Positions 820 to 23,902 of a DNA stretch of 40,660 bases are shown here, piece by piece. The stretch is from an uncultured Lentisphaeria bacterium (GTDB lineage Bacteria > Verrucomicrobiota > Lentisphaeria > Victivallales > Victivallaceae), in the NCBI GenBank assembly GCA_903831825.1, contig CAIKZE010000046.1:1-40660 (forward strand), written 5' to 3'. A model generated the notes under the pieces. It was not told the origin of the DNA and did no database searches. It was given only the letters and a program-made list of their open reading frames with translations. The translations under genes and the position numbers were made by a program. The first letter of the stretch is position 1. Each line of letters starts with the position of its first letter.

Positions 820-928
820 AGAGGTTGATATTCGCCATTGGCCAGGCGGATTGGCTGGAGAGAATAAGACTCTCGAATGTCCGTGCCGATCACCTTGTAA
901 GATTGCTATATACAATTATGGAGTATTG

Positions 929-2404
929 ATGAACAAGAAAGAACTTGAAGACTATCTCTGGGGCGCGGCCAATATTCTGCGCGGAATGATTGACGCCGCC
1001 GACTTTAAACAATACATTTTCCCGTTATTATTTTTCAAACGCATCAGCGATGTATGGGATGAGGAATATCAAACCGCTCTTAAAGAAAGCGGGAACGACC
1101 TCGCTTATGCCCAGTTCCGCGAAAACCACCGGTTCCAGATTCCAAAAAATTGCCATTGGGATGACGTCCGCAAGAAAACCGTTGATGTCGGCGCGGCCCT
1201 GCAAAAAGCCATCAGCGGAATTGAAAAAGCCAATTTCGACATGCTCCATGACGTGTTCGGCGATGCGCAATGGACGAATAAACGCCGGATGAGCGATGAA
1301 AAGATGCTCGACCTGATTGAACATTTCAGCCGGATGAATTTAACCGTCAGCAATGTTCCCCATGACATCATGGGCGAAGGCTACGAATACCTGATTAAAA
1401 AGTTTGCCGACGACAGCGGCCATACCGCCGCCGAATTTTACACTAACCGCACCGTCGTAAAACTCATGACTCAGATTACCGATCCGCAACCCGGCGAAAG
1501 CATTTATGACCCTACTTGCGGCAGCGGCGGGATTCTGCTATCCAGCGCGCTGCATGTCAAAGAACAGGGCAAGGAATACCGTACCCTGAAACTTTACGGG
1601 CAGGAACTGAACCTGATCACCTCCGCCATTGCCCGAATCAATATGTTTATGCACAATGTCGATGAATTCCTGATTGTGCAGGGCGACACGCTGGAAAGCC
1701 CGCAGATACTCGAAGACGATGAGCTTAAAACGTTTGACGTAATCATGGCGAATCCGCCGTACAGTGTTAAACGCTGGAATCAGCAAAAGTGGATGAACGA
1801 CCCGTTCGGACGCAATATCTGGGGAACCCCGCCGCAGGGTTGCGCCGATTATGCGTTTCAACAGCATATCATGAAAAGCCTGAATCCTGAAACCGGCAGA
1901 AGCGTGGTGCTCTGGCCCCACGGCGTATTGTTCCGGGATTCCGAAAGCGACATTCGCAAACGCATGATTGAGGAAGATTGCGTTGACGCAGTGATCGGGA
2001 TGGGTAAAAACCTTTTCTATAATAGCAGTATGGAAAGCTGCCTGCTGGTATGCAGAATGCGGAAACCGAAAGCAAGACAAGGAAAAATTATTTTTATTGA
2101 CGCCAAAGAAGAATTGAGGATTGACCGTACCAATGCCTGGCTGGAACCGCACCATATAAAAAAGATCAGCGAGGCCTATTGGAAGTTTAAAGATGTCGCA
2201 GGCTTCGCCAAAATAATGAGCAATAAAGAGGTGCTGGCGAATAATGGCAACCTGAGTGTGCAGTTGTATGTCAAACAGGCGGAAGTCGCCAACGAACACA
2301 ATACTGAAAAGTTGATTGGTGATATTAAAACCGGACAAAAACAGATCAAAGCCTCGCTCGAAAAGTTATTCACTCAACTGAAAAATATAGGTATTGAAGT
2401 ATGA
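929..2404 (+). CDS. hsdM: Type I restriction-modification DNA methyltransferase subunit HsdM
   Basis: This is the methyltransferase subunit that adds N6-methyl groups to adenine in complex with HsdS. At the N-terminus is the helical HsdM_N region (LEDYLWGAANILRG, FKRISDVW). The AdoMet-binding motif DPTCGSGG starts near residue 194 and the catalytic NPPY at 275-278. The length (491 aa) is normal for the family. The frame is open back to 851, but I chose ATG 929 because GGAG (920-923) sits 5 nt before it and the protein then begins MNKKELEDYLWG as relatives do. The stop overlaps the hsdS start by 4 nt (ATGA), indicating translational coupling. Confidence 0.95.
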   Translation: MNKKELEDYLWGAANILRGMIDAADFKQYIFPLLFFKRISDVWDEEYQTALKESGNDLAYAQFRENHRFQIPKNCHWDDVRKKTVDVGAALQKAISGIEKANFDMLHDVFGDAQWTNKRRMSDEKMLDLIEHFSRMNLTVSNVPHDIMGEGYEYLIKKFADDSGHTAAEFYTNRTVVKLMTQITDPQPGESIYDPTCGSGGILLSSALHVKEQGKEYRTLKLYGQELNLITSAIARINMFMHNVDEFLIVQGDTLESPQILEDDELKTFDVIMANPPYSVKRWNQQKWMNDPFGRNIWGTPPQGCADYAFQQHIMKSLNPETGRSVVLWPHGVLFRDSESDIRKRMIEEDCVDAVIGMGKNLFYNSSMESCLLVCRMRKPKARQGKIIFIDAKEELRIDRTNAWLEPHHIKKISEAYWKFKDVAGFAKIMSNKEVLANNGNLSVQLYVKQAEVANEHNTEKLIGDIKTGQKQIKASLEKLFTQLKNIGIEV

Positions 2405-3585
2405 AGTTGAGAAAGGATAAATGGGATAACAGTAAACTTCGAAGTATTACGCATAGAATTACTAAAGGCACAACGCCTACTTCAATTGGTTGTAATTTTC
2501 ATGCCTCTGGCATTAACTTTATAAAAGCCGAGTCCTTAACAGAGAATGGCGAATTCGTTGTAGATAAATTTGCGTATATTGATGAAGAAACTAATAGTAA
2601 ATTGAAGCGTTCTATAATTGAAGAAAACGATATTCTTTTTTCAATCGCTGGTGTTATTGGCCGTGTCGCCATTGCGAATAATGAAATACTACCGGCAAAC
2701 ACAAATCAAGCGTTGTCGATTATTAAACCTAACCTTGATTATGTAATCCCAAATTATTTAAGGTTCTTTTTGATTTCTGATTTTTTTAAGAAACAAGTTC
2801 GAAATAAAACGGTTCAAACAGCACAAGCAAACATTAATCTTGAATCGCTTGGCAATTCTGACATTTTACTTCCGCCGCTTGAAGAACAAAAAACAATTGC
2901 CGCTCTCTTTCAATCCATCGAAACGACGATTGAGCAAGTGGATGGGCAGGAAAAAAATTTACTGAATTTAAAAAAACAGATGCTGCGTGAATTGTTTGGT
3001 GAAACGCAACAATTCGGCAATTATCTGCATAAAAGTGATTTTGAAAAAGTTAAATTTGAAAAGATCGCATTAAACATATCTGAACGAGTCGAACCGCAGA
3101 AAACGACACTGGATACTTATGTCGGATTAGAGCATTTAGACCCTGATAATCTTGTTATCGCCAGAACCGGAACCCCGGATGATGTAATCGGCACGAAATT
3201 AAAAATCTATAAAGGCGACATTATATTCGGGAAGCGTCGAGCCTATCAGCGCAAAGTTGCGGTTTCGTATTTTGACGGCATTGCCTCCGCCCACAGCATG
3301 ATATTAAGGGCCAATGAAAAGCATATTGAAAAGGAGTTCCTGCCCTTTTTTATGCAATCCGATGTATTTATGAACCGTGCCGTTCAAATTTCGGAAGGTT
3401 CGCTCTCGCCGACGATCAAATGGAAAACATTAGCCGCGCAAGAGTTTTATTTGCCCCAAAAAGAGAAACAGCAAGAATTGACCAAAGTATTTAAGCAGTT
3501 TGATATTACCAGAGAGCAGCTCAAGCAGCAAAAAATCACGCTGAAAAACTTGAAACAGAAACTATTAAGCGAGATATTAGGATAG
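2401..3585 (+). CDS. hsdS: Type I restriction-modification specificity subunit HsdS
   Basis: This subunit recognises the split DNA target of the type I complex. The 394-residue protein has the expected two-part layout: target recognition domain 1 (about 1-155), a conserved helical spacer beginning LPPLEEQKTIAALFQSI (about 158-200), target recognition domain 2 (about 210-345), and a second helical repeat (LPQKEKQQELTKVFKQF to the end). The two helical segments resemble each other as usual, and no truncation or internal inverted repeat was noticed. It overlaps hsdM by 4 nt and is followed 5 nt later by the dinD-like gene. The recognition sequence cannot be read from the protein. Confidence 0.93.
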   Translation: MKLRKDKWDNSKLRSITHRITKGTTPTSIGCNFHASGINFIKAESLTENGEFVVDKFAYIDEETNSKLKRSIIEENDILFSIAGVIGRVAIANNEILPANTNQALSIIKPNLDYVIPNYLRFFLISDFFKKQVRNKTVQTAQANINLESLGNSDILLPPLEEQKTIAALFQSIETTIEQVDGQEKNLLNLKKQMLRELFGETQQFGNYLHKSDFEKVKFEKIALNISERVEPQKTTLDTYVGLEHLDPDNLVIARTGTPDDVIGTKLKIYKGDIIFGKRRAYQRKVAVSYFDGIASAHSMILRANEKHIEKEFLPFFMQSDVFMNRAVQISEGSLSPTIKWKTLAAQEFYLPQKEKQQELTKVFKQFDITREQLKQQKITLKNLKQKLLSEILG

Positions 3586-3590
3586 TAAAT

Positions 3591-4433
3591 ATGAAAAAAG
3601 AACTTATTATTGAACTATTTGAGAAATTTGAAGGGGCCTGTTACCTTGCCAACAATCTGGAATGCTGGAGCGCCAGAGAATTGCAGGAGATATTAGGCTA
3701 TGCCGAATGGCGGAATTTTCTTAAAGTAATAGACAAGGCAAAGACGGCTTGTGAAAATGCCGATGTCAAGGTGTCAGATCATTTTGTTGATGTCAACAAA
3801 ATGATCGAGATTGGTAAAGGCGGTCAGCGTGAAGTGGATGACATGGCCTTAACCCGTTATGCCTGCTATCTGATCGCACAAAATGGCGACTCGGTCAAGA
3901 GTGAAATTTCCTTTGCGCAGACCTATTTTGCGGTTCAGACCCGGAAGCAGGAAATAATAGAACAGCGGATTTTAGATATGGACCGGGTAATCGCCCGCGA
4001 TAAGTTAACGAAATCCGAAAAGAAACTATCAGGCATAATTTATGAGCGCGGCGTTGATGAAATGGGTTTTGCCCTTATCCGCTCAAAAGGAGATCATGCG
4101 TTATTCGGCGGTTTCTCCACCAGCGCCATGAAGCACAAACTGATGATTCCCGATGGCAGGCCATTGGCAGATTTTTTACCTACGCTCACCATCAAAGCCA
4201 AAGATTTTGCGGCCGAACTTACCAGCCATAATGTCATAGAAAAAGATTTATCCGGCACTAACAAGATATCCGACGAACATGTGGAAAACAATCGGGCGGT
4301 TCGCAAAATGCTGATTGAGCGGGGAGTAAAACCGGAAGCGCTGCCGCCGGCGGAAGACGTCAAAAAGATTCAGCGTAAATTAGACGGAGATGAAAGAAAA
4401 TTGCTCAAAGATATAAAGAAGAAAAAGGATTAG
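3591..4433 (+). CDS. dinD: DinD-like DNA-damage-inducible protein D
   Basis: The 280-residue protein matches the DinD family in length and in its N-terminal block (NLECWSARELQEILGYAEW, RYACYLIAQNGD). That block resembles the Bro-N/KilA-type N-terminal regions of phage and accessory proteins. E. coli DinD is SOS-induced and reported to inhibit RecA filaments; the role of the copies inside restriction operons is unknown. The C-terminal half is charged and ends in lysine-rich KKKKD. It is packed between hsdS (5 nt gap) and hsdR (4 nt gap), so it is co-transcribed with the restriction system. No LexA box was recognised. Confidence 0.88.
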   Translation: MKKELIIELFEKFEGACYLANNLECWSARELQEILGYAEWRNFLKVIDKAKTACENADVKVSDHFVDVNKMIEIGKGGQREVDDMALTRYACYLIAQNGDSVKSEISFAQTYFAVQTRKQEIIEQRILDMDRVIARDKLTKSEKKLSGIIYERGVDEMGFALIRSKGDHALFGGFSTSAMKHKLMIPDGRPLADFLPTLTIKAKDFAAELTSHNVIEKDLSGTNKISDEHVENNRAVRKMLIERGVKPEALPPAEDVKKIQRKLDGDERKLLKDIKKKKD

Positions 4434-4437
4434 CAAT

Positions 4438-7416
4438 ATGGCATTCAATGAGCTTAACAGCGTGGAATATTTCATTATTCACCAGCTTACCGGGATTAAT
4501 CTGAACCAGGTTCAGCATGGGATGGTCAAGGAAGAAGCCGCGCCTTATGTCAATAATGCCAAATGGAAATATGTTCAGCCGGAATTGCTGCCGCGCGAGA
4601 TAACCGATGTTTTTCTGGAAAAGGAATTAAAAGAGTCATTAATTCGCCTGAACCCGGCAATCGCCGCCAATCCCGAACGCGCCGAAGAGGTCATTCACAA
4701 ACTGCGCGCCATTCTGATTACCGTCGGAAATGTCGGGCTGGTGCGCGCAAATGAAGAATTTGCCAAATGGCTGCGCGGAGAAATCTCGATGCCGATTGGC
4801 AATGACAATGAGCATGTAAATATCCGCCTGATAGATTTTGAGTGCATAAACAACAATACTTTTCTGCTGACGAATCAGTTCAAAATACGCGTCCGGGAAA
4901 CTAAAATACCCGATATCGTAATGTTTGTAAACGGCATTCCGCTGGTCGTGGGTGAAGTGAAAACTCCGGTGCGTCCGGCGGTTACCTGGTTTGACGGTGC
5001 GCACGATATTCATGTGATTTACGAAAACGCCGCGCCGCAACTGTTTGTGCCGAATGTGTTCTCTTTTGCTTCCGAAGGGAAAGAACTGTATATCGGCGGA
5101 GTAAGAACCCCGCTGGAATTCTGGTCGCCATGGCGGCTGGAGGATGAAAAAGATGAACTGCATCATTTTGCCGGTTTGCAGGATGTCGCCCGGCAGGTAA
5201 CTCATTTGCTGAAGCCTTCCACGCTGCTGGACATCTTGCAATACTTCACGATTTACGCCACCAGCAGCAAAAAGAAAAAGATAAAAGTGGTCTGCCGTTA
5301 CCAGCAGTACGAAGGCGCCAATGCCATTGTCGAGCGGGTAAAGGAAGGCAAAATCAAGAAAGGCCTAATCTGGCATTTTCAGGGCTCGGGCAAATCGCTG
5401 CTGATGCTGTTTGCCGCACAAAAAATGCGCAAGCAGGAGGAATTAGGTAGTCCCACGGTACTGATTGTGGTTGACCGGGTGGACCTGGACACGCAGATAA
5501 CCGCGACTTTCAATACCGCCGAAGTGCCGAATATGGTAACCACCGACAATATCAAAGAACTGCATGATCTGCTGGAAAGAGACTCCCGGAAAATCATCAT
5601 TACCATGATTCATAAATTTAAAGAGGCGTATCCCGATATGAACAAGCGGGAAAATATCATCGTGATGGTGGACGAAGCGCACCGGACGCAGGAAGGCGAC
5701 CTGGGCCGCAAAATGAGAAACGCACTACCTAACGCCTTTCTTTTCGGCTTGACCGGAACGCCGATCAACCGTGCTGACAAAAATACGTTCTGGGCATTCG
5801 GGGCCGAAGAAGATTCGAACGGTTACATGAGCCGTTACACTTTTCAGGACAGCATTCGCGACAACGCCACGCTGCCGCTGCACTTTGAACCGCGCCTGCC
5901 GGACTATCACATAGACAAAGATAGCCTGGATGTCGCATTCAAAGAATTGGCGAACGACCTGAGCGAAGACGACCGCAACAAACTGAGCCAGAAAGCCGCG
6001 AAAATGGCGGTATTTTTAAAATCTCCGGAACGGGTGCGCACCATCGTTCAGGATATAGCGGAGCATTTTCAAAAGCATGTGGAACCGGAAGTGTTCAAGG
6101 CAATGATCGTAACCCCCGACCGCTATGCCTGCATCCAGTACAAAGCGGAACTGGATAAATTGCGTTCCCCTGAATCCAGCATTGTTGTCATCAGCACCTC
6201 CGTCAATGATAATTCGGAAGTAAAACAGAACTTCGGCATGGACCGGGACCAGCAGGAAAAGGTGATTGAAAAGTTCAATGATCCGGATTCGCCGCTGAAA
6301 TTCCTGATTGTTACCGCGAAACTGCTAACCGGTTTTGATTCGCCGATTCTACAGACGATGTATCTGGATAAATCGCTTAAAGACCATACGCTGCTGCAAG
6401 CGATCTGCCGTACAAACCGGCTCTTTCCGAATAAAACCTTTGGCCGGATAGTTGATTACTTCGGGGTTTTTGACGACACGGCCAGCGCGCTGGCATTCGA
6501 TGAAGAATCGGTCAAGAAAGTTATCACCAACTTGCAGGAATTGCGCGACAAACTGCCGGAACAAGTAACGCTTTGCCTGTCGCATTTTTCGGGCGTGGAT
6601 AGAACCGTTGAAGGTTTTGAAGGCTTGCAGGCCGCGCAGGATCGCATCAACTCGAACGATAAACGCGATGCTTTTGCCAAAGATTTCAGTTTATTGTCGA
6701 AGTTGTGGGAAGCACTTTCCCCGGATGACGTACTGAGAAATTATCAAAGAGATTATAAATGGCTTTCACAGGTTTATACCTCAGTCAAACCGGGGGCCGA
6801 CGATAACGGCAGATTATTATGGCATGCTTTAGGCGCGCAAACGACGGCGCTTATTCATGAACATATCCATGTTACAGGCATCAATCACGATATGGAAGAA
6901 GTGATTTTAGATGCTGACGTAATCGATAACCTGATGAATAAGAAGGATCCGAAACAGGCGGAAAAAGTTTTGAAAATCCTTGTAAGTAGACTTGGCAAAC
7001 ATGGCGGCAATCCGATTTTCAGGAAGTTAAGCGAAAGGCTTGAAGCATTGAGAGACAAGGCCGAAAAAGGTTTGATTAACTCCATTGAATTCATTAAAGA
7101 ACTTTGCCAGATAGCGAAAGAGACACTACAGGCGGAAAAACAAACCGTTACGCCGGAAGAACAAAAAAGCGCGAAAACCGCCTTGACCGAATTGTTTCTT
7201 GAACTGAAAACGGACACCACGCCGGCCATTGTCGAGCGGATAGTCAATGATATTGATGAAATTGTTCGTCTGGTCCGCTTTGACGGCTGGCAAAATACGA
7301 TTCCCGGCGAAAGAGAAGTTCAAAAATCTTTACGCAAGACATTGTTGAAATATCAGTTGCATAAGGATGAAGAACTTTTCAATAAGTCGTATGAATATAT
7401 CAAGGAATATTATTAA
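4438..7416 (+). CDS. hsdR: Type I restriction endonuclease subunit HsdR
   Basis: This is the motor and nuclease subunit, which translocates DNA using ATP and cuts at a distance. The nuclease core is visible as D159 (PDIVMF) with E173 and K175 (GEVKTP), a PD-(D/E)xK signature. Superfamily 2 helicase motifs follow: Walker A GSGKS with K319, DEAH at 412-415, a TGTP motif shortly after, and a later QAICRTNR motif VI. The length of 992 aa is typical. The C-terminal third is helical and presumably contacts HsdM. All catalytic residues I looked for are present, so the system appears intact. It is the last gene of the tightly packed operon; no hairpin terminator is evident after it. Confidence 0.95.
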   Translation: MAFNELNSVEYFIIHQLTGINLNQVQHGMVKEEAAPYVNNAKWKYVQPELLPREITDVFLEKELKESLIRLNPAIAANPERAEEVIHKLRAILITVGNVGLVRANEEFAKWLRGEISMPIGNDNEHVNIRLIDFECINNNTFLLTNQFKIRVRETKIPDIVMFVNGIPLVVGEVKTPVRPAVTWFDGAHDIHVIYENAAPQLFVPNVFSFASEGKELYIGGVRTPLEFWSPWRLEDEKDELHHFAGLQDVARQVTHLLKPSTLLDILQYFTIYATSSKKKKIKVVCRYQQYEGANAIVERVKEGKIKKGLIWHFQGSGKSLLMLFAAQKMRKQEELGSPTVLIVVDRVDLDTQITATFNTAEVPNMVTTDNIKELHDLLERDSRKIIITMIHKFKEAYPDMNKRENIIVMVDEAHRTQEGDLGRKMRNALPNAFLFGLTGTPINRADKNTFWAFGAEEDSNGYMSRYTFQDSIRDNATLPLHFEPRLPDYHIDKDSLDVAFKELANDLSEDDRNKLSQKAAKMAVFLKSPERVRTIVQDIAEHFQKHVEPEVFKAMIVTPDRYACIQYKAELDKLRSPESSIVVISTSVNDNSEVKQNFGMDRDQQEKVIEKFNDPDSPLKFLIVTAKLLTGFDSPILQTMYLDKSLKDHTLLQAICRTNRLFPNKTFGRIVDYFGVFDDTASALAFDEESVKKVITNLQELRDKLPEQVTLCLSHFSGVDRTVEGFEGLQAAQDRINSNDKRDAFAKDFSLLSKLWEALSPDDVLRNYQRDYKWLSQVYTSVKPGADDNGRLLWHALGAQTTALIHEHIHVTGINHDMEEVILDADVIDNLMNKKDPKQAEKVLKILVSRLGKHGGNPIFRKLSERLEALRDKAEKGLINSIEFIKELCQIAKETLQAEKQTVTPEEQKSAKTALTELFLELKTDTTPAIVERIVNDIDEIVRLVRFDGWQNTIPGEREVQKSLRKTLLKYQLHKDEELFNKSYEYIKEYY

Positions 7417-7617: not shown

Positions 7618-8442
7618 ATGAAAAACCAGAAAATTGATGTTCAAGGTAAAGAGATAACAATTATAACCAGAGAACAGAAAGACTACATTTCTTTGACAGA
7701 TATTGCCAAATACAAAAACATTGATGCTCCCGCTGATATTGTAAAAAACTGGATGCGAAGCCGGAGCACGATTGATTTTCTCGGGTTATGGGAAAGATTA
7801 AATAACCCAAATTTTAAACTGGTCGAATTCGACCAGTTTAGAAATGAAGCCGGGGCTAATTACTTTGTCTTATCCCCGCTGAAATGGATTGAAACCACTA
7901 ATGCTATCGGCATTATTTCCAGATCCGGCAAAAACGGTGGGACTTTTGCTCACAAAGATATTGCTTTTGAATTTGCCTCCTGGGTTTCGTCAGAATTCAA
8001 ACTGTATCTTATTAAAGAATTTCAGCGGCTTAAAGATGAAGAGAACAACCGTCTCAGACTGGACTGGACTCTGCAGCGGACTATCTCTAAAATAAATTAC
8101 CTTATTCATACCGACGCCATAAAAGCGAATCTTATTCCTCCTGAATTATCGAAAAAACAAACTCAGTTAATCTATGCCAGTGAAGCCGATATTCTCAATA
8201 TGGCGATGTTCGGCATGACCGCCAAAGAATGGCGTGACCGCAATCCCGGCAAAGACGGAAATATCCGGGACACGGCAACGCTGGAACAACTGGTGGTTCT
8301 GTCCAATCTGGAAAGTATTAATTCGGTTTTAATACATCAAGCGGTTCCGCCAGGTGAACGTTTGACCCATTTGAACCAAATAGCCATTACGCAGATGAAA
8401 TCGCTGTTGGAGAATAGAAATATCAAGCGGTTGAAGCAATAA
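7618..8442 (+). CDS. KilA-N domain protein
   Basis: The KilA-N DNA-binding region covers about residues 10-130 (YISLTDIAKYKN, NPNFKLVEFDQFRNEAG, SGKNGGTFAHKDIAFEFA), followed by a C-terminal half of roughly 140 residues typical of chromosomal KilA-N proteins (QTQLIYASEADILNMAMFG, AKEWRDRNPG). Such genes come from phages and accompany restriction loci as accessory genes of unknown function. It lies 201 nt after hsdR in the same direction, preceded by AGAGG and a 16-codon mini-frame at 7560-7610 that ends just before the ATG. A 26-bp perfect palindrome lies inside the coding sequence at 7815-7840. The family call is firm; the cellular role is not known. Confidence 0.88.
   Translation: MKNQKIDVQGKEITIITREQKDYISLTDIAKYKNIDAPADIVKNWMRSRSTIDFLGLWERLNNPNFKLVEFDQFRNEAGANYFVLSPLKWIETTNAIGIISRSGKNGGTFAHKDIAFEFASWVSSEFKLYLIKEFQRLKDEENNRLRLDWTLQRTISKINYLIHTDAIKANLIPPELSKKQTQLIYASEADILNMAMFGMTAKEWRDRNPGKDGNIRDTATLEQLVVLSNLESINSVLIHQAVPPGERLTHLNQIAITQMKSLLENRNIKRLKQ
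7815..7840. repeat. 26-bp perfect palindrome inside the KilA-N gene
   Basis: TAAACTGGTCGAA is followed directly by its reverse complement with no spacer. It encodes the conserved KLVEFDQFR segment of the KilA-N domain. The symmetry is exact over 13 bp per arm. Confidence 0.9.
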
Positions 8443-18443: not shown

Positions 18444-20485
18444 TGACTGTGCCGCCTATCAAAAAGGAACCGTTTATGTTCAAACACCGGCCGAATGTCA
18501 TTGCCGAATTGCGGCAGGATTCTTATCTGGCGCCTTACCTTGACCGCCTGAACTCGCGCCGTCTCCAGGCTGAAGACATGGAACGGAAAATCGTCGGGGA
18601 AGGGCGTTCGCTGGCTGATTTCGCGTCCGGGCATGAATTTTTCGGACTCCACTTCCGCGACGGCGGCTGGATTTTTCGCGAATGGGCGCCGAATGCGACG
18701 GAAATATTTATGGTCGGAGACTTTTCCGACTGGAAAGAGTTGCCTAAATTCAGCTTGAAGAAAAGCGGCGGCACTGGAGTCTGGGAAGCCATACTGCCGG
18801 CCGGCGCCATGTGTCACGGCATGCTTTACCGGTTGAAAATCCACTGGCGCGGCGGTTCGGGTGACCGGCTGCCGGCTTATGCCAGGCGGGTAGTCCAGGA
18901 CCAGCATACCCTGATTTTCAATGCTCAGGTATGGCAGCCGCAACCTTACAACTGGAAAAACCGCCCGCCGGATTTCAGCAATAAACCGCCGATGATCTAC
19001 GAAACCCATGTCGGCATGTCCCGCGAGTTTGCCGGTGTCTCTTCCTACCGGCAGTTTCAGGAAGAAGTGCTGCCGCGGATCGTCCGTTCCGGCTACAACA
19101 CCGTCCAGATCATGGCCGTAATGGAACATCCGTACTACGGCTCGTTCGGCTATCATGTATCCAACTTTTTCGCCGCGTCTTCCCGTTTCGGCACCCCGGA
19201 AGAATTCAAGGAACTCGTGGATACCGCCCACGGCTGCTGCCTGCGGGTGATTATTGACCTGATCCACTCCCACGCCGTGCGCAACGAAATCGAAGGCCTC
19301 GGACGCTTTGACGGAACCAGATATCAATATTTCCATGCGGGGGACCGGGGCAGCCATTCCGCCTGGGATTCCTACTGCTTCGACTATTCCAAACCCCAGG
19401 TGCTCCATTTTCTGCTGTCCAACTGCCGTTTCTGGCTGGACGAATACCGGGTGGACGGATTCCGTTTCGACGGCATCACCAGTATGCTCTACCATCATCA
19501 CGGCCTTGGAAACGCGTTTACCAGCTATCATGATTATTTCAGCAGCCAGGTGGACGAAGAATCGCTGACTTACCTGACACTGGCAAACAAAGTGATTCAC
19601 CAGGTCCGTCCGGACGCGATCACCATTGCCGAGGACGTCAGCGGGATGCCGGGACTGGCCGCGCCGGTTGAGCAGTGCGGCTGCGGTTTCGACTACCGCC
19701 TGGCGATGGGCGTGACCGACTACTGGTTTAAACTGTTCGACATTCCGGATGAAGCCTGGAGCATGTCCGGATTGTGGCATGAACTCACCAACCGGCGGCG
19801 CGATGAAAAGACGATCAGCTATGTCGAATGCCATGACCAGGCGATTGTCGGCGGCCAGACCGTCATCTTCCGGCTGATCGGCAAAGATATGTATGACGCC
19901 ATGCATAAGGATTCCCGCAATTTGTTGGTTGACCGCGGCATGGCCATTCACAAGATGGCGCGGCTGGCAACGCTTGCCACAGCCGGCAACGGCTACCTGA
20001 ATTTCATGGGCAATGAATTCGGGCATCCGGAATGGATTGATTTTCCACGCCAGGGTAATAACTGGTCATATCACTATGCCAGGCGGCAATGGTCGCTGGC
20101 GGATAATCCCGACCTGCGCTATCATTTCCTTCAGGCCTTTGACCGCGAAATGGTTAAAATAGCGCAAAAATACAATCTGATTAATACCGGGTCGCAGAAA
20201 TTATACATAAACGACGATCAAAAAATAATGGCGTTTGAACGCGGCGGCCTGTTCTTTTTCTTCAACTTCCATCCGTCTGAATCATATACTAATTATCCGG
20301 TGGAAACCTTGCCCGGAGAATATGTTTTGGAACTGGATACCGACTCCCCGGACTTCGGCGGCCACGCCCGGCTCACTCCGGGACAGCATTATTTCACCAC
20401 CCCCGAAAAACACGGCAATGAAATCCGCAACATGTTGAAATTATATCTGCCTTCCCGCACCGCCATCGTCCTCAGAAGGAAATAA
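18443..20485 (+). CDS. glgB: 1,4-alpha-glucan branching enzyme, GH13_8 (eukaryote-like) type
   Basis: It cuts alpha-1,4 chains and re-attaches them as alpha-1,6 branches. A CBM48-like N-terminal domain (FREWAPNATEIFMVGDFSDW) precedes the barrel. Region I is DLIHSHAVRNE, region II GFRFDG with nucleophile D343, region III IAEDVS with E397, and region IV ECHDQA with D465; VQIMAVMEHPYYGSFGYH is characteristic of the eukaryotic-type subfamily. The length is 680 aa from ATG 18443; ATG 18476 is an equally good start because AAGGAA is 6 nt before it. The last ~20 codons are the sequence repeated downstream at 22615-22656 and 23791-23871. The gene is intact, so any insertion event rebuilt its end. Confidence 0.94.
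   Translation: MTVPPIKKEPFMFKHRPNVIAELRQDSYLAPYLDRLNSRRLQAEDMERKIVGEGRSLADFASGHEFFGLHFRDGGWIFREWAPNATEIFMVGDFSDWKELPKFSLKKSGGTGVWEAILPAGAMCHGMLYRLKIHWRGGSGDRLPAYARRVVQDQHTLIFNAQVWQPQPYNWKNRPPDFSNKPPMIYETHVGMSREFAGVSSYRQFQEEVLPRIVRSGYNTVQIMAVMEHPYYGSFGYHVSNFFAASSRFGTPEEFKELVDTAHGCCLRVIIDLIHSHAVRNEIEGLGRFDGTRYQYFHAGDRGSHSAWDSYCFDYSKPQVLHFLLSNCRFWLDEYRVDGFRFDGITSMLYHHHGLGNAFTSYHDYFSSQVDEESLTYLTLANKVIHQVRPDAITIAEDVSGMPGLAAPVEQCGCGFDYRLAMGVTDYWFKLFDIPDEAWSMSGLWHELTNRRRDEKTISYVECHDQAIVGGQTVIFRLIGKDMYDAMHKDSRNLLVDRGMAIHKMARLATLATAGNGYLNFMGNEFGHPEWIDFPRQGNNWSYHYARRQWSLADNPDLRYHFLQAFDREMVKIAQKYNLINTGSQKLYINDDQKIMAFERGGLFFFFNFHPSESYTNYPVETLPGEYVLELDTDSPDFGGHARLTPGQHYFTTPEKHGNEIRNMLKLYLPSRTAIVLRRK
20421..20485 (+). 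repeat. glgB 3'-end repeat, copy 1 (in the intact gene)
   Basis: This is the in-frame end of glgB, finishing YLPSRTAIVLRRK and stop. It is the reference copy for two orphan repeats downstream, all on the + strand and all still readable in the same frame. Confidence 0.85.
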
Positions 20486-20826
20486 ACTCGCACAGGGTAT
20501 TGAGTTCCGAATGATAAAAAAGAATAATATTCTGATGCAGGTTATCTCGGATATATGTGGGATGCCAAAGATATAATGTGTCATAGATGCGGAATAGAAC
20601 TATTATTAAAACAAATGTAGGTGAGGTAATTTCAAAACTATTGTTTTCATGTTTTCTACTATGCGTTTTGAGCGTAGCAATAGATCCTTATTTCAACTGA
20701 TTAAAAATGGGCTTTTGAAATTACCTCTAGAGATAATTTATTTTAAAACGTATAATGTTCTTGTCACTATTGAAATAGAAATCAGAGCGGTATATGTTAT
20801 GTTTGTGAATATAGGGGGTTTATACC
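20486..20826. other. Intergenic region between glgB and the accessory pair
   Basis: No gene is seen in these 341 bases. The frame at 20649-20846 crosses the hairpin structure and lacks a ribosome site. The main content is the nested inverted repeat at 20623-20727. The DNA is AT-rich compared with the glycogen genes, consistent with foreign material starting right after the glgB stop. Confidence 0.5.
20623..20727. other. 105-nt nested inverted repeat, candidate structured RNA or binding site
   Basis: The outer arms GAGGTAATTTCAAAA (20623-20637) and TTTTGAAATTACCTC (20713-20727) are exact 15-bp complements. Next to the left arm CTATTG (20638-20643) pairs with CAATAG (20678-20683), and inside that CTATGC (20659-20664) pairs with GCGTAG (20672-20677) with one G-U, closing a GTTTTGA loop. 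Three stems nest in one fold. It lies 99 nt before the unknown gene pair. Whether it is transcribed is not known. Confidence 0.6.
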
Positions 20827-21231
20827 TTGAAGAAACCAACATATAAGCATAACTCGAAACATTTGTCTGTTTCTTGCCCTGGGAATCTTAGTTTGAAGCA
20901 ATTAACGGCATTGGCTGCTCGTGTTCGTTATGTTGGAAGTTCTGATCACAAGGGGCATGGAAATTCTTTTTTCCCGCCCCCGGCAACGCCGCGTCCAACC
21001 GCATCGCTTTGTGACAATGTTATAACATTGGCGGTGGCAAATAAATGGTTAAAGCAAGGTATCTCAAGAGGGAACATTAACTGGTTTGAGCCTGCGGTTG
21101 GATATCCACGCTATGTTTGGTTTATCAATGATGATAATATAGTCTATGAAGCTAGGCTGACCAATCCGGGAAACGGTGAGTATAAAGGGTATCCTTTATA
21201 TCCGGATCAGCAAGTAAAAGGTCTTAAATGA
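20827..21231 (+). CDS. Uncharacterised 134-residue protein coupled to the ImmA/IrrE-like gene
   Basis: I do not recognise a named family with certainty. The protein is compact, basic at the N-terminus (MKKPTYKHNSKH), has a glycine/proline-rich stretch (SDHKGHGN, FFPPPATPRP), and ends in an aromatic block (GYPRYVWFIND, VYEARL, GEYKGYPL) that looks like a small alpha/beta enzyme or toxin-like domain. No signal peptide or membrane segment is present. It starts at TTG 20827, 8 nt after GGGGG, and its stop overlaps the next start (ATGA), so the two products are made together. Position in an accessory module between glgB-tail repeats suggests a mobile two-gene system such as toxin-antitoxin or defence; that is inference only. 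Confidence 0.7.
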   Translation: MKKPTYKHNSKHLSVSCPGNLSLKQLTALAARVRYVGSSDHKGHGNSFFPPPATPRPTASLCDNVITLAVANKWLKQGISRGNINWFEPAVGYPRYVWFINDDNIVYEARLTNPGNGEYKGYPLYPDQQVKGLK

Positions 21232-22532
21232 GTAGTATTTCGATAACAATCGGAGATTGGATTAAAGGGACGCCGCCTGAAGAGTTGGCGTTTACTAATG
21301 TTCCTTTAAAAATTAAACTAGATGATGAGATTATTACTCAACTTTCTGACCGTGAAAGCCGTTCATTAAGAGACGATCTTTTTATACCCCTTTACCCTTT
21401 GGCCGAATGGATCGCCGCTAATTGGTGGCGGTTACTTTATGAATGCAATGATCTGCATCGAAGAAATGACCTATCTTATGAATACTGTCATTATATGCGT
21501 TATGCTGGTGATGGGTATTTTTTACCTGACTTGAGAATTATGCCATGTGGTAATGAGATTGTATTTGATTGCATCAGAAGAGCTGATGATCTGTATTCAT
21601 TTGTAAACTCATTCAAAACATCAGTTCCTTTAAAAGATGTTGAGAGTGAATTTAAAAAATTCATAGAATTAGTTATCAGTCGACTACTGCATTGTGATAT
21701 AAAAAAAACTGTTCTTCAGAAAGATTGGGCCGCAATAAATGCTACTTTGCGTGATAAGGAAGAAAGATTTTTTTGTATTGCCGCGGCCCAGTTGGGCTTG
21801 GACCCGTATAACATTACGGAAGAACTATCTGATAGTATTATATCTGCATACGAATTGTTAAATAATAAGGTTGAACTTGGCGATTATTTCAGCGCTGTTC
21901 CGCAAAGCAATTTGGGTGAAATTACTGCGTGGATGAATAATGTAGCAGATAAAATGCTTAACAATACGCCGAAAAATAAAACACTGGCGAATATAAAAAA
22001 AGAGATTTCGGTTGTTGCAGATGGGGAAACGCCTTGGGCGCAAGGGTATAAAATTGCAAATTTTATCAGTAAAAAACTTTTCGGAGGAAAAAAATCCACG
22101 CAACGACTGTATGACTTTATCGATTCTGCGCAGATAAAATTCGATTCACGGCCTATTTCGCCGCTTTTTTGTAACGCATTGGTGAGTAGTTCCTCAAACA
22201 ATGAACCGGCTTTCATGGTTGATTTACAAGAAAATACTACGAAGAATAATTTTTTGGCTGGTCGGATGTTGGGTGAATATTTCTGTAATATTAAGACATC
22301 AATAGTAAACTGTATCTCTGTGGCCAAGACATTCAACCAACAGAGGAACAGAGCTTTTGCTGCCGAGTTATTGGCTCCGGCGGCATTTATTAAAGAAAAG
22401 CTTGGAGACTCCAAGGAAGTTGACTATGATGCTATTTCTGAATTGGCGTCAGAATGTCAGACCGAGGAATTCGTAATTCGCTATCAGATACAAAATCACC
22501 ATCTGGCAAAAATTACGCCTCAATATATCTAG
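21228..22532 (+). CDS. ImmA/IrrE-like protein with lost metal-binding site
   Basis: This is a 434-residue cytoplasmic protein. The N-terminal two thirds are unfamiliar. The C-terminal part follows the ImmA/IrrE metallopeptidase pattern: a helix NNFLAGRMLGEYF at the place of the usual HExxH helix (R346-ML-G-E), then NRAFAAELLAPAAFIKE (AELLAP at 378-383), and a closing ECQTEEFVIRYQIQNHHL resembling the FGVS..V.YRL.N end of the family. The HExxH residues are missing, so a zinc protease is unlikely; it may be a pseudo-enzyme regulator of its partner. It overlaps the preceding gene by 4 nt. Codon use is AT-rich compared with the glycogen genes, suggesting transfer. The family assignment is by eye and moderate. 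Confidence 0.6.
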   Translation: MSSISITIGDWIKGTPPEELAFTNVPLKIKLDDEIITQLSDRESRSLRDDLFIPLYPLAEWIAANWWRLLYECNDLHRRNDLSYEYCHYMRYAGDGYFLPDLRIMPCGNEIVFDCIRRADDLYSFVNSFKTSVPLKDVESEFKKFIELVISRLLHCDIKKTVLQKDWAAINATLRDKEERFFCIAAAQLGLDPYNITEELSDSIISAYELLNNKVELGDYFSAVPQSNLGEITAWMNNVADKMLNNTPKNKTLANIKKEISVVADGETPWAQGYKIANFISKKLFGGKKSTQRLYDFIDSAQIKFDSRPISPLFCNALVSSSSNNEPAFMVDLQENTTKNNFLAGRMLGEYFCNIKTSIVNCISVAKTFNQQRNRAFAAELLAPAAFIKEKLGDSKEVDYDAISELASECQTEEFVIRYQIQNHHLAKITPQYI

Positions 22533-22614
22533 ACAATGCTTTATCGTGATTGAGATATGTTGCCTTACTTTATTTTTGGTGCGATTTATAACATTCCGCT
22601 CTTTTTATGGGAGA

Positions 22615-22656
22615 TATTTGCCTTCCCGCACCGCTATCGTCCTTAGAAGAATATGA
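22615..22656 (+). repeat. glgB 3'-end repeat, copy 2 (orphan)
   Basis: It reads YLPSRTAIVLRRI and then TGA in the glgB frame. Differences from copy 1 are mostly silent (GCC to GCT, CTC to CTT, AGG to AGA), so it behaves like a coding remnant of a related glgB rather than a random repeat. It lies between the ImmA-like gene and the RhuM gene. Confidence 0.8.
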
Positions 22657-22690
22657 ACCGGTTGGACGGAACATTGGACGAAAAACTTGC

Positions 22691-22718
22691 TTGCATTTTA
22701 TCTGAACACACGCATATT
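22691..22718 (+). promoter_or_regulatory. Candidate promoter of the RhuM gene
   Basis: TTGCAT (22691-22696), a 16-base spacer and CATATT (22713-22718) lie 26 nt before the ATG. The flanking text TGCTTGCATTT and TCTG matches the element in front of hsdM (791-819). Confidence 0.45.
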
Positions 22719-22744
22719 TTATCCTGATAGGACAAAGAATAAAG

Positions 22745-23779
22745 ATGCAAATAAAAAGAAATGAAACTATGTGGGAACCTGATAGCGAAATTGTTATTTA
22801 CCAAAATCAGGACGGCAATGTCAAAATAGATGTGCGTCTGGAAGAGGAGACCGTTTGGCTGACACAGGCACAAATGGCGCTATTATTTAACAAAAGTAGA
22901 ACTACCATCACCGAACATATTCAGAATATATTCAAGGAAGGAGAACTCTGTGAGAGTTCAGTATGTCGGAATTTCCGACATACTGCCCAGGACGGCAAAA
23001 CATATGGAACCAATTACTATAATCTTGATATCATTATCTCCGTGGGCTACCGGGTAAAATCGCATCAGGGTACACAGTTCAGAATATGGGCGACGCAACG
23101 GCTTAAAGAATATATTGTTAAGGGTTTTGCGCTGAACGATGACCGCTTTAAGCGGGGCAATTCAATGAACTATTTCAACGAGTTGCAGGAACGCATTCGC
23201 GAGATTCGTTTGTCCGAGAGATTTTTCTATCAAAAAATAAAAGACATCTACACCACCAGCATAGACTATGACCCCGACGATGAAAAAACCATTGAGTTTT
23301 TCAAGATAGTGCAGAACAAACTGCTGTGGGCAATCAGCCGTCAAACCGCCGCTGAACTGATTTATCGCCGCGTGGACGCCGCATTGCCGCTTCTGGGGAT
23401 GCAGTCGTTAGACAAAAGCAGCGCGTCCAAGGTCAAAAAGAGTGATATCAGCATTGCAAAAAACTATTTGAACGAAGACGAAATAAAACTGCTTGGCTTA
23501 TTAGTCGAGCAATATCTGGCTTTTGCCGAGACCATGGCGCAGCAGCGCAAACCGATGTATATGGCGGATTGGATAAGCAAATTAGACGATATTTTGCAGC
23601 TTAACGGCAGAGAATTGCTTACTCATGCCGGAAAAATCAGTCATGAAATGGCCTTGCAAAAATCAAATCAGGAATTTGAGAAATATCAGGAAGAGCAAAA
23701 AATAATTGCCCATGAGCTAAGTTTAAAAGAGATAGAAGCGGATATTAAGCAATTGAAACAAATAGCAAAAAATGATTAA
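22745..23779 (+). CDS. RhuM-family protein
   Basis: The 344-residue protein carries the family blocks EIVIYQNQDGNVKIDVRLE split around residues 14-32, TVWLTQAQMALLF, ESSVCRNFRHTAQDGKTY, YNLDIIISVGYRVKS and QFRIWATQRLKEYIVKGF. RhuM was named from a Salmonella pathogenicity island; the N-terminal half looks like a DNA-binding accessory domain and such genes recur in genomic islands with restriction systems, but the biochemical role is not established. The C-terminal tail is rich in E and K and probably coiled (EFEKYQEEQKIIAHELSLK). ATG 22745 is used; the AGGA before it is 12 nt away, so the start is less sure (ATG 22769 is an alternative). It is flanked by glgB-tail copies 2 and 3. Confidence 0.9.
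   Translation: MQIKRNETMWEPDSEIVIYQNQDGNVKIDVRLEEETVWLTQAQMALLFNKSRTTITEHIQNIFKEGELCESSVCRNFRHTAQDGKTYGTNYYNLDIIISVGYRVKSHQGTQFRIWATQRLKEYIVKGFALNDDRFKRGNSMNYFNELQERIREIRLSERFFYQKIKDIYTTSIDYDPDDEKTIEFFKIVQNKLLWAISRQTAAELIYRRVDAALPLLGMQSLDKSSASKVKKSDISIAKNYLNEDEIKLLGLLVEQYLAFAETMAQQRKPMYMADWISKLDDILQLNGRELLTHAGKISHEMALQKSNQEFEKYQEEQKIIAHELSLKEIEADIKQLKQIAKND
22959..22985. repeat. 27-bp palindrome inside the RhuM gene
   Basis: CAGTATGTCGGAA, one central T, then the exact reverse complement. It encodes the conserved SVCRNFRHTA segment. The arms are 13 bp, without mismatch. Confidence 0.9.
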
Positions 23780-23790
23780 GGCGGACTATG

Positions 23791-23871
23791 CCGGAGCACG
23801 TCAATTAAATCCGCAGCATGTTGAAGCTATATCTGCCTTCCCGCAGTGCCATCGTCCTCAGAAAAATATGA
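23791..23871 (+). repeat. glgB 3'-end repeat, copy 3 (orphan, longest)
   Basis: In the glgB frame it reads P-E-H-V-N, a stop in place of Glu, then IRSMLKLYLPSRSAIVLRKI and TGA. Compared with copy 1 it has one codon deleted, one nonsense change and several silent changes. It begins 12 nt after the RhuM stop and marks the end of the accessory block. Downstream, the minus-strand glycan locus begins. Confidence 0.85.
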
Positions 23872-23902
23872 ACTTGGCGTTTGTGTTGTAACGTCTATTT
23901 TT

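Follow-up and report, generated by a model that had tools for sequence, protein, structure and literature searches.

Introduction

CapP and IrrE are active zinc proteases that control HTH repressors by cleavage, and ImmA-like proteins such as these two respond to stress signals. The ImmA/IrrE fold is common to the pairs CapP-CapH, ImmA-ImmR and IrrE/PprI-DdrO. Proteins with this domain are also part of predicted or confirmed toxin-antitoxin (TA) systems. Xre-COG2856 pairs, which are mobile two-gene operons with a COG2856 (ImmA) protein, were predicted to be TA systems, and the protein family was described by its HEXXH motif (Makarova et al., 2009, PMC2701414). In RosmerTA, which consists of the toxin RmrT and the ImmA-domain antitoxin RmrA, the ImmA domain is a confirmed antitoxin that occurs with different toxins, and the toxin comes first in 58% of the cases (PMC10440598). 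The ImmA hub of NetFlax (node D25) is comparable in its diverse second partners. TumE is a toxin that was shown experimentally to target translation (PMC10584680).

Here we describe a gene pair, termed A and B, in a 40,660 nt stretch of DNA from an uncultured Lentisphaeria bacterium (contig CAIKZE010000046.1); this whole stretch is referred to as the window. The pair resembles RosmerTA and NetFlax D25 in having two genes, an ImmA/IrrE-domain partner, a diverse second partner and, with A as the candidate toxin, the common toxin-first order. It differs from RosmerTA in that A is no known RmrT by PADLOC profile and in that the B clade is without catalytic site throughout and mostly without a recognised HTH. 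With the Xre-COG2856 pairs it shares the mobile two-gene operon and the ImmA protein, but it has neither an Xre partner nor HEXXH. Structurally, B is most similar to CapP and IrrE; whereas CapP, ImmA and IrrE cleave an HTH repressor, the ligand sites of B are occupied by Arg, Asp or Glu, and Gln, and no HTH is recognisable in its partner A. The module is widespread and apparently without an existing name. We read A-B as a self-contained, horizontally mobile TA-type module of the ImmA-antitoxin kind, similar to RosmerTA and possibly active in phage defence, in which A would exert the toxic effect, with B as its antitoxin or as a sensor, and we give this reading a probability of about 0.6.

Results

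Organization of the Gene Pair

An earlier note on this DNA, made from the sequence alone, reported an overlapping gene pair; both reading frames were found at those positions, with ATGA in common. B proteins without catalytic site are called dead here, those with HExxH active. The features of the pair are:

20827-21231, plus strand: gene A, 134 amino acids, TTG start; small protein, candidate toxin (family alignments A4 and A6)
About 8 nt upstream of the TTG start: GGGGG, possible ribosome-binding site of A
20947-20952, plus strand: residues H41-K42 of A, invariant across the A family
21010-21012, plus strand: residue C62 of A, invariant in the A family and aligned with the invariant Cys of the A2 family
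21181-21195, plus strand: motif Y-K-G-Y-P of A, which is Y-H-G-Y-P in most homologues
21228-21231, plus strand: overlap ATGA of the A stop and the B start, 4 nt common to both reading frames
21228-22532, plus strand: gene B, 434 amino acids, ATG start; ImmA/IrrE fold without catalytic site, candidate antitoxin or regulator
21228-22022, plus strand: N-terminal and middle region of B, residues 1-265, outside the ImmA domain; dead and active forms are homologous here
22023-22529, plus strand: C-terminal ImmA/IrrE-like domain of B, approximately residues 266-434
22263-22277, plus strand: pseudo-active site R346-M-L-G-E350 of B, which replaces HExxH (75-member alignment)
22338-22340, plus strand: residue Q371 of B, invariant in 75 of 75, where active relatives have Glu as the third metal ligand

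Protein A had been described as small and aromatic-rich; small it is, and with 15 aromatic residues out of 134 it is mildly aromatic only.

Protein B Has an ImmA/IrrE Fold with a Lost Catalytic Site

On its own, the window's B gave no significant match in Pfam (M78 included), NCBIfam or PHROGs, and in PADLOC it matched capP only, weakly (E 5e-4). Single-sequence searches (Pfam, NCBIfam, PHROGs, PDB, phages, viral contigs) were altogether uninformative and family alignments were needed. Peptidase_M78 (PF06114) is matched by 38 of the 75 B homologues (best 1.3e-8). Thus the ImmA/IrrE profile search that the earlier note had proposed as a check fails for the window protein and succeeds for its family. 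The AlphaFold2 model of B, built on a 71-row alignment of the window protein and the fetched loci, has a pLDDT of 91.5 and a pTM of 0.90. Its top PDB matches in Foldseek, with a probability of 1.00, are CapP (7t5t, E 1.7e-3) and IrrE (3dte/3dti); they cover approximately 170-180 of the 434 residues, with a TM-score by target of 0.39-0.43. Matches of the B profile to ApoE in the PDB were discarded as a probable artefact of helical composition. According to Pfam, AlphaFold2 with Foldseek, and the tree described below, the B proteins are a single clade with an ImmA/IrrE fold, and at the family level this assignment is firm. This relationship had first been recognised by the FAAELLAP helix and the C-terminal layout.

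Residues 342-352 of B read FLAGRMLGEYF and residues 375-384 RAFAAELLAP, and GRMLGEY is located at the site of AHELGHY in ImmA/IrrE proteases. The earlier conclusion that the catalytic site is gone extends to the family, since HExxH is absent at the site in all 75 aligned B proteins. The first His is replaced by Arg in 75 of 75 and the second by Asp or Glu in 70 of 75; Gln replaces the third-ligand Glu without exception (75/75). Because the replacing residues are invariant or nearly so in 75 homologues, the missing HExxH is the result of neither chance nor decay. One string of the HExxH type, HEPRH in the B protein of L023, lies elsewhere than the site. A more distant B that was found later (L112) keeps the Gln and lacks the Arg.

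When trees included active and canonical ImmA proteins, the dead B proteins formed one side of a branch with a support of 100/98, which was 100/99 after removal of the six catalytic columns. As its stem is long, the dead clade is more certain in its unity than in its exact sister. Phyla are intermixed within the tree, and the window's B is located on a long branch. Judged by these sequences, the catalytic site of the B clade was lost once and never regained. What had been seen as a single dead protein is indeed dead; it belongs to a whole dead clade, which has an active sister clade.

Protein A Belongs to a Family without Known Relatives

No significant match of A was found in single-sequence searches of Pfam, NCBIfam and PHROGs, nor did the A family, with family alignments included, match anything in Pfam, NCBIfam, PHROGs, PADLOC or the PDB. 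With an E cutoff of 1, the RmrT toxin models of PADLOC gave no match among 73 A sequences. Comparison with TumE gave no PF20126 match, and hhalign with a Rhizobium TumE protein yielded a probability of 0.2%. The AlphaFold2 model of A (pLDDT 81, pTM 0.77) consists of two main helices and a small sheet, and a fold search against the PDB and viral structure models revealed no relative. Thus structure prediction of the single proteins, as suggested in the earlier note, resulted in an ImmA/IrrE fold for B and in a model without known relative for A. Since A has no HTH match in Pfam, it is not an Xre-type HTH partner and the pair differs, as had been claimed, from the XRE-ImmA arrangement.

Residues Y35, G37, H41, K42, C62, P94, Y119 and P123 are invariant in the A family, and H41 aligns with an invariant His of the A2 family. 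From the conservation in A and A2 one might guess that H41 and C62 are catalytic; nucleic acid or the translation machinery as the target of A would likewise be a guess. In four loci (L083, L088, L056, L015) A is located at the C-terminus of a long reading frame; a fusion was considered and rejected, as the part upstream of A reads as non-coding (GC3, odd composition).

A and B Are Tightly Coupled and Patchily Distributed

In tblastn and whole-genome searches, relatives of B were identified on plasmids from Agrobacterium, Rhizobium, Tistrella, Massilia and Acidithiobacillus. Of 289 genomes that belong to the window's phylum, 10 contain B relatives, with the window's own counted and two being weak fragments only. 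Barring few exceptions, a small A-homologous gene precedes these B relatives. When genome contigs were scanned with the A family, 126 confirmed A relatives were obtained, and 80 loci were kept. They belong, among others, to Pseudomonadota, desulfobacteria, Chlorobiota, Cyanobacteriota, Acidobacteriota, Planctomycetota, Spirochaetota, Armatimonadota and Lentisphaerota. In all 80 loci B directly follows A on the same strand, and 60 of the 64 adjacent pairs examined overlap, mostly by 4 or 8 nt, B starts being chosen by rule. The tight coupling to a small gene that had been noticed in the window is therefore found across the family.

Neighbours other than A and B are hardly common to the 80 loci. 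The survey of neighbourhoods that the earlier note had recommended thus revealed neither conserved neighbours nor a housekeeping context. The distribution is patchy (many phyla, plasmids and one viral-collection contig), and the pair is present in about 3-4% of the genomes sampled in two phyla. Pairwise distances of A and B from 65 loci correlate with r = 0.72, to which shared descent adds; the best of 2000 permutations reached 0.40. As type II TA modules would be, A-B is a conserved overlapping two-gene operon with a patchy, mobile distribution. The closest relative of the window's B (L017, 9297-10787; 36% identity) has no adjoining A and is possibly an orphan antitoxin.

The Pair Is Located in a Cassette at the glgB 3′ End

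The pair lies downstream of glgB, the 3′ end of which is present in three copies:

20443-20488, plus strand: glgB 3′ end, first repeat copy
22614-22659, plus strand: second, partial copy (39 of 46 nt by eye), right end of the A-B cassette
23797-23874, plus strand: third copy (86% over 78 nt), right end of the RhuM cassette

Of the three copies, the third is the closest to the native glgB end of the same-genus genome G288, with 91% identity, and the pair is absent from G288 and from a second genome of the genus, G206. The simplest reading is that two successive insertions took place at the glgB 3′ end, an A-B cassette (approximately 20489-22659) and a RhuM cassette (approximately 22660-23874). 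Each ends in a glgB-end copy, as in site-specific integration; no integrase was found inside either cassette. The glgB 3′ end looks like an integration hotspot at the end of a protein-coding gene, with no integrase nearby. G206 has its own short repeat of the glgB end at the same place, and the 78 nt just upstream of RhuM are 86% identical to the stretch after glgB in G206 (L182). There a different gene follows glgB behind that 78-bp stretch, as if cargo had been exchanged behind a shared leader. The RhuM-family gene (22745-23779; PF13310, E 3.5e-102) is a PADLOC candidate (PDC-S05) and has three copies in the genome. The pair had been assigned to an inserted module next to RhuM: the insertion is supported by the bracketing glgB copies, RhuM as part of the unit is not, being a separate adjacent cassette that is not conserved beside the pair elsewhere.

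Upstream of A we observed a 118-bp element (20622-20739) with 15-nt perfect terminal inverted repeats, of which three other copies are present in the same genome with 97% identity; it is probably a miniature inverted-repeat transposable element. An inverted repeat upstream of A was considered as an operator and rejected, as it is part of this element and repeated elsewhere in the genome. At the beginning of the window a complete type I restriction-modification operon is located (851-7416), which codes for HsdM, HsdS, then at 3591-4433 for a DinD-like protein, and for HsdR. A KilA-N-type gene comes after it (7618-8442); all were named from their translations.

Plasmid homologues of the pair are located near restriction genes (Agrobacterium pAt2), dptH (Massilia), MazEF (Thiodictyon) and VapC/Phd (Agrobacterium pAt). 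Known defence genes are also present around the pair in other genomes, but in a PADLOC scan of the genome loci, genes within 2 kb of the pair were not clearly richer in defence matches than those more than 4.5 kb away. Defence or addiction, to which the earlier note had pointed, would be a possible role. Rfam gave no match above threshold.

An Active Sister Form and Changing Partners

A homologous pair with an intact site, A2-B2, was identified in Castellaniella caeni (L056:14409-16293), where B reads LAHEIAH...EQRARAFAAEFLLP; this organism also carries dead B copies. Ten further near full-length B2 proteins with HExxH (L114-L121, L173, L174), each directly preceded by A2, come from other genomes of the phylum of Castellaniella and from plasmids. 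The B2 proteins keep HExxH and the downstream Glu. By hhalign, A2 is a homologue of A (probability 95.7, E 8.5e-9), and the two have in common the His, the Cys and the segment P..iW/iY...YHGYP. The homology of B2 with dead B extends over 400 columns and includes the N-terminal part (E 1.6e-19). All three active B2 proteins tested are matched over the ImmA domain by PADLOC RmrA profiles (down to 1.8e-17), and one RmrA profile matches 29 of the 75 dead B proteins (best 1.2e-7), the window's B matching capP only; these profiles may merely recognise the ImmA domain.

Two active B2-type proteins (L122, 1303-3045; L123, 709-2604) are fused to another N-terminal domain, which in L122 is weakly DUF6575-like and is possibly another partner of B. 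In an Azospirillum locus (L175) the upstream gene codes for 262 amino acids and has no family match. Because the L122/L123 domain and this gene differ from A, the B domain appears to change partners.

The Rhizobium etli plasmid pRetIE4771b carries a TumE gene (PF20126, E 9e-7), directly after which a dead B domain is fused to an HTH of the ArsR/HVO_A0114 type. This locus (L013, 5135-7098) might contain a new TumA-type partner. Its B groups, on a long branch, with A-linked B proteins of Agrobacterium and Tistrella plasmids (98/85), and this position among A-linked B proteins suggests a partner swap. In contrast to TumE-TumA, most B proteins have no HTH, and A and TumE are without profile similarity. 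It may be that the HTH is the actual antitoxin of this locus, B being a mere add-on.

Interrupted A Genes Outnumber Interrupted B Genes

An interrupted or truncated A gene is present beside an intact B in six loci (L048, L078, L150, L152, L156 and L118, the last one with a truncated A2), and an intact A beside an interrupted B in two (L060, L126). Only loci not cut by contig ends were counted; in L017 A is absent altogether. B is three times longer, thus neutral decay predicts the opposite ratio, and 6 of 8 at p = 0.25 gives a binomial value of 0.004 in a test that was chosen post hoc, for a small sample that derives partly from metagenome assemblies and includes loci found through B.

Discussion

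Several observations argue for a TA module. B directly follows A in 80 of 80 loci while the other neighbours vary, the distances of A and B correlate, and the spread is patchy and mobile. The ImmA domain is the antitoxin in RosmerTA (PMC10440598), RmrA profiles match part of the dead B proteins and the B2 proteins tested, perhaps by the ImmA domain only, and a dead B variant is paired with the validated toxin family TumE. The homologous sister form A2-B2 keeps HExxH and Glu. Interrupted A beside intact B outnumbers the reverse, in a small set examined post hoc. An antitoxin role of B, which the earlier note had considered, would by analogy agree with the RosmerTA precedent and the TumE-linked variant. 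Against a TA module it can be said that most B proteins are without a recognised HTH, which leaves autoregulation unaccounted for; that intact A beside broken B exists (L060, L126), as does a dead B without A (L017); and that PADLOC matches are not clearly commoner near the pair than at a distance. A toxic role of A is deduced from context, as comparison with known toxin families and folds gave no match.

We infer that A is toxic, that B neutralises it and that a trigger exists, and the same applies to a role in defence. As antitoxin or sensor, B would hold the presumed toxic effector A in a complex and neutralise it by binding and not by cutting, until a trigger frees or activates A. As the metal-binding and catalytic residues are lost while the fold and the N-terminal part are kept, B should neutralise A without cutting. 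The retention of A despite the loss of the protease site speaks against cleavage of A as the core function.

The same pairing might serve regulation without any toxicity, with B controlling A, by cleavage in the active form and by sequestration in the dead one, to switch other genes as in ImmA-ImmR, IrrE-DdrO and CapP-CapH. The closest solved structures of B, CapP and IrrE, are indeed proteases that control repressors, and the active sister form places an A-like protein beside a protease. However, A has no HTH recognisable by Pfam and its AlphaFold2 model is not an obvious DNA-binding fold, a conserved third gene is not available as target, and the fact that a whole clade kept A after losing the protease residues speaks against a main role of A as a substrate for cleavage, which makes this explanation rather unlikely. 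Quite improbable, too, is an immune pair that is not a TA system, in which B senses a phage product, the effector A needs B and neither is toxic alone. It would fit the module-like spread, the occasional nearness to restriction, Dpt, Septu and CBASS genes and the stress-signal response of ImmA-like proteins elsewhere (IrrE, CapP), but the precedents with similar gene pairs are TA systems, and the commoner decay is the one expected if A alone were harmful, a weak indication.

The window's B is diverged and located on a long branch, as a functionless, decaying ImmA protease would be, and the pair could then be an accident of assembly or annotation. This is contradicted by the invariance of R346 and Q371 (75/75), a clade that spans phyla and an operon found in 80 of 80 loci, and we regard it as highly improbable. 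Equally hard to credit is a housekeeping pair with a metabolic role tied to glycogen genes: in the window the pair does directly follow glgB, but its absence from G206 and G288, the unrelated neighbours elsewhere and the occurrence in about 3-4% of genomes of two phyla largely refute this.

A further-reaching version of the TA module, which we regard as tentative and doubtful, is that with A a toxin family of new fold has its founding member, and that the B clade is an antitoxin protease turned once into a pure binder with a rebuilt Arg/Asp-Glu/Gln site for sensing the trigger, while the sister clade controls the homologous toxin by proteolysis. If this were true, one toxin family would be under two control mechanisms. 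The dead clade suggests that protease activity is not needed for neutralisation, and the paired dead and active forms would allow a direct test of whether ImmA protease activity is needed to neutralise or to trigger. If A-B is a TA module, a toxin family spread over many phyla, without known fold or Pfam entry, would be gained. A-B thus adds a candidate toxin family and a candidate clade of pseudoprotease antitoxins to the ImmA-antitoxin modules.
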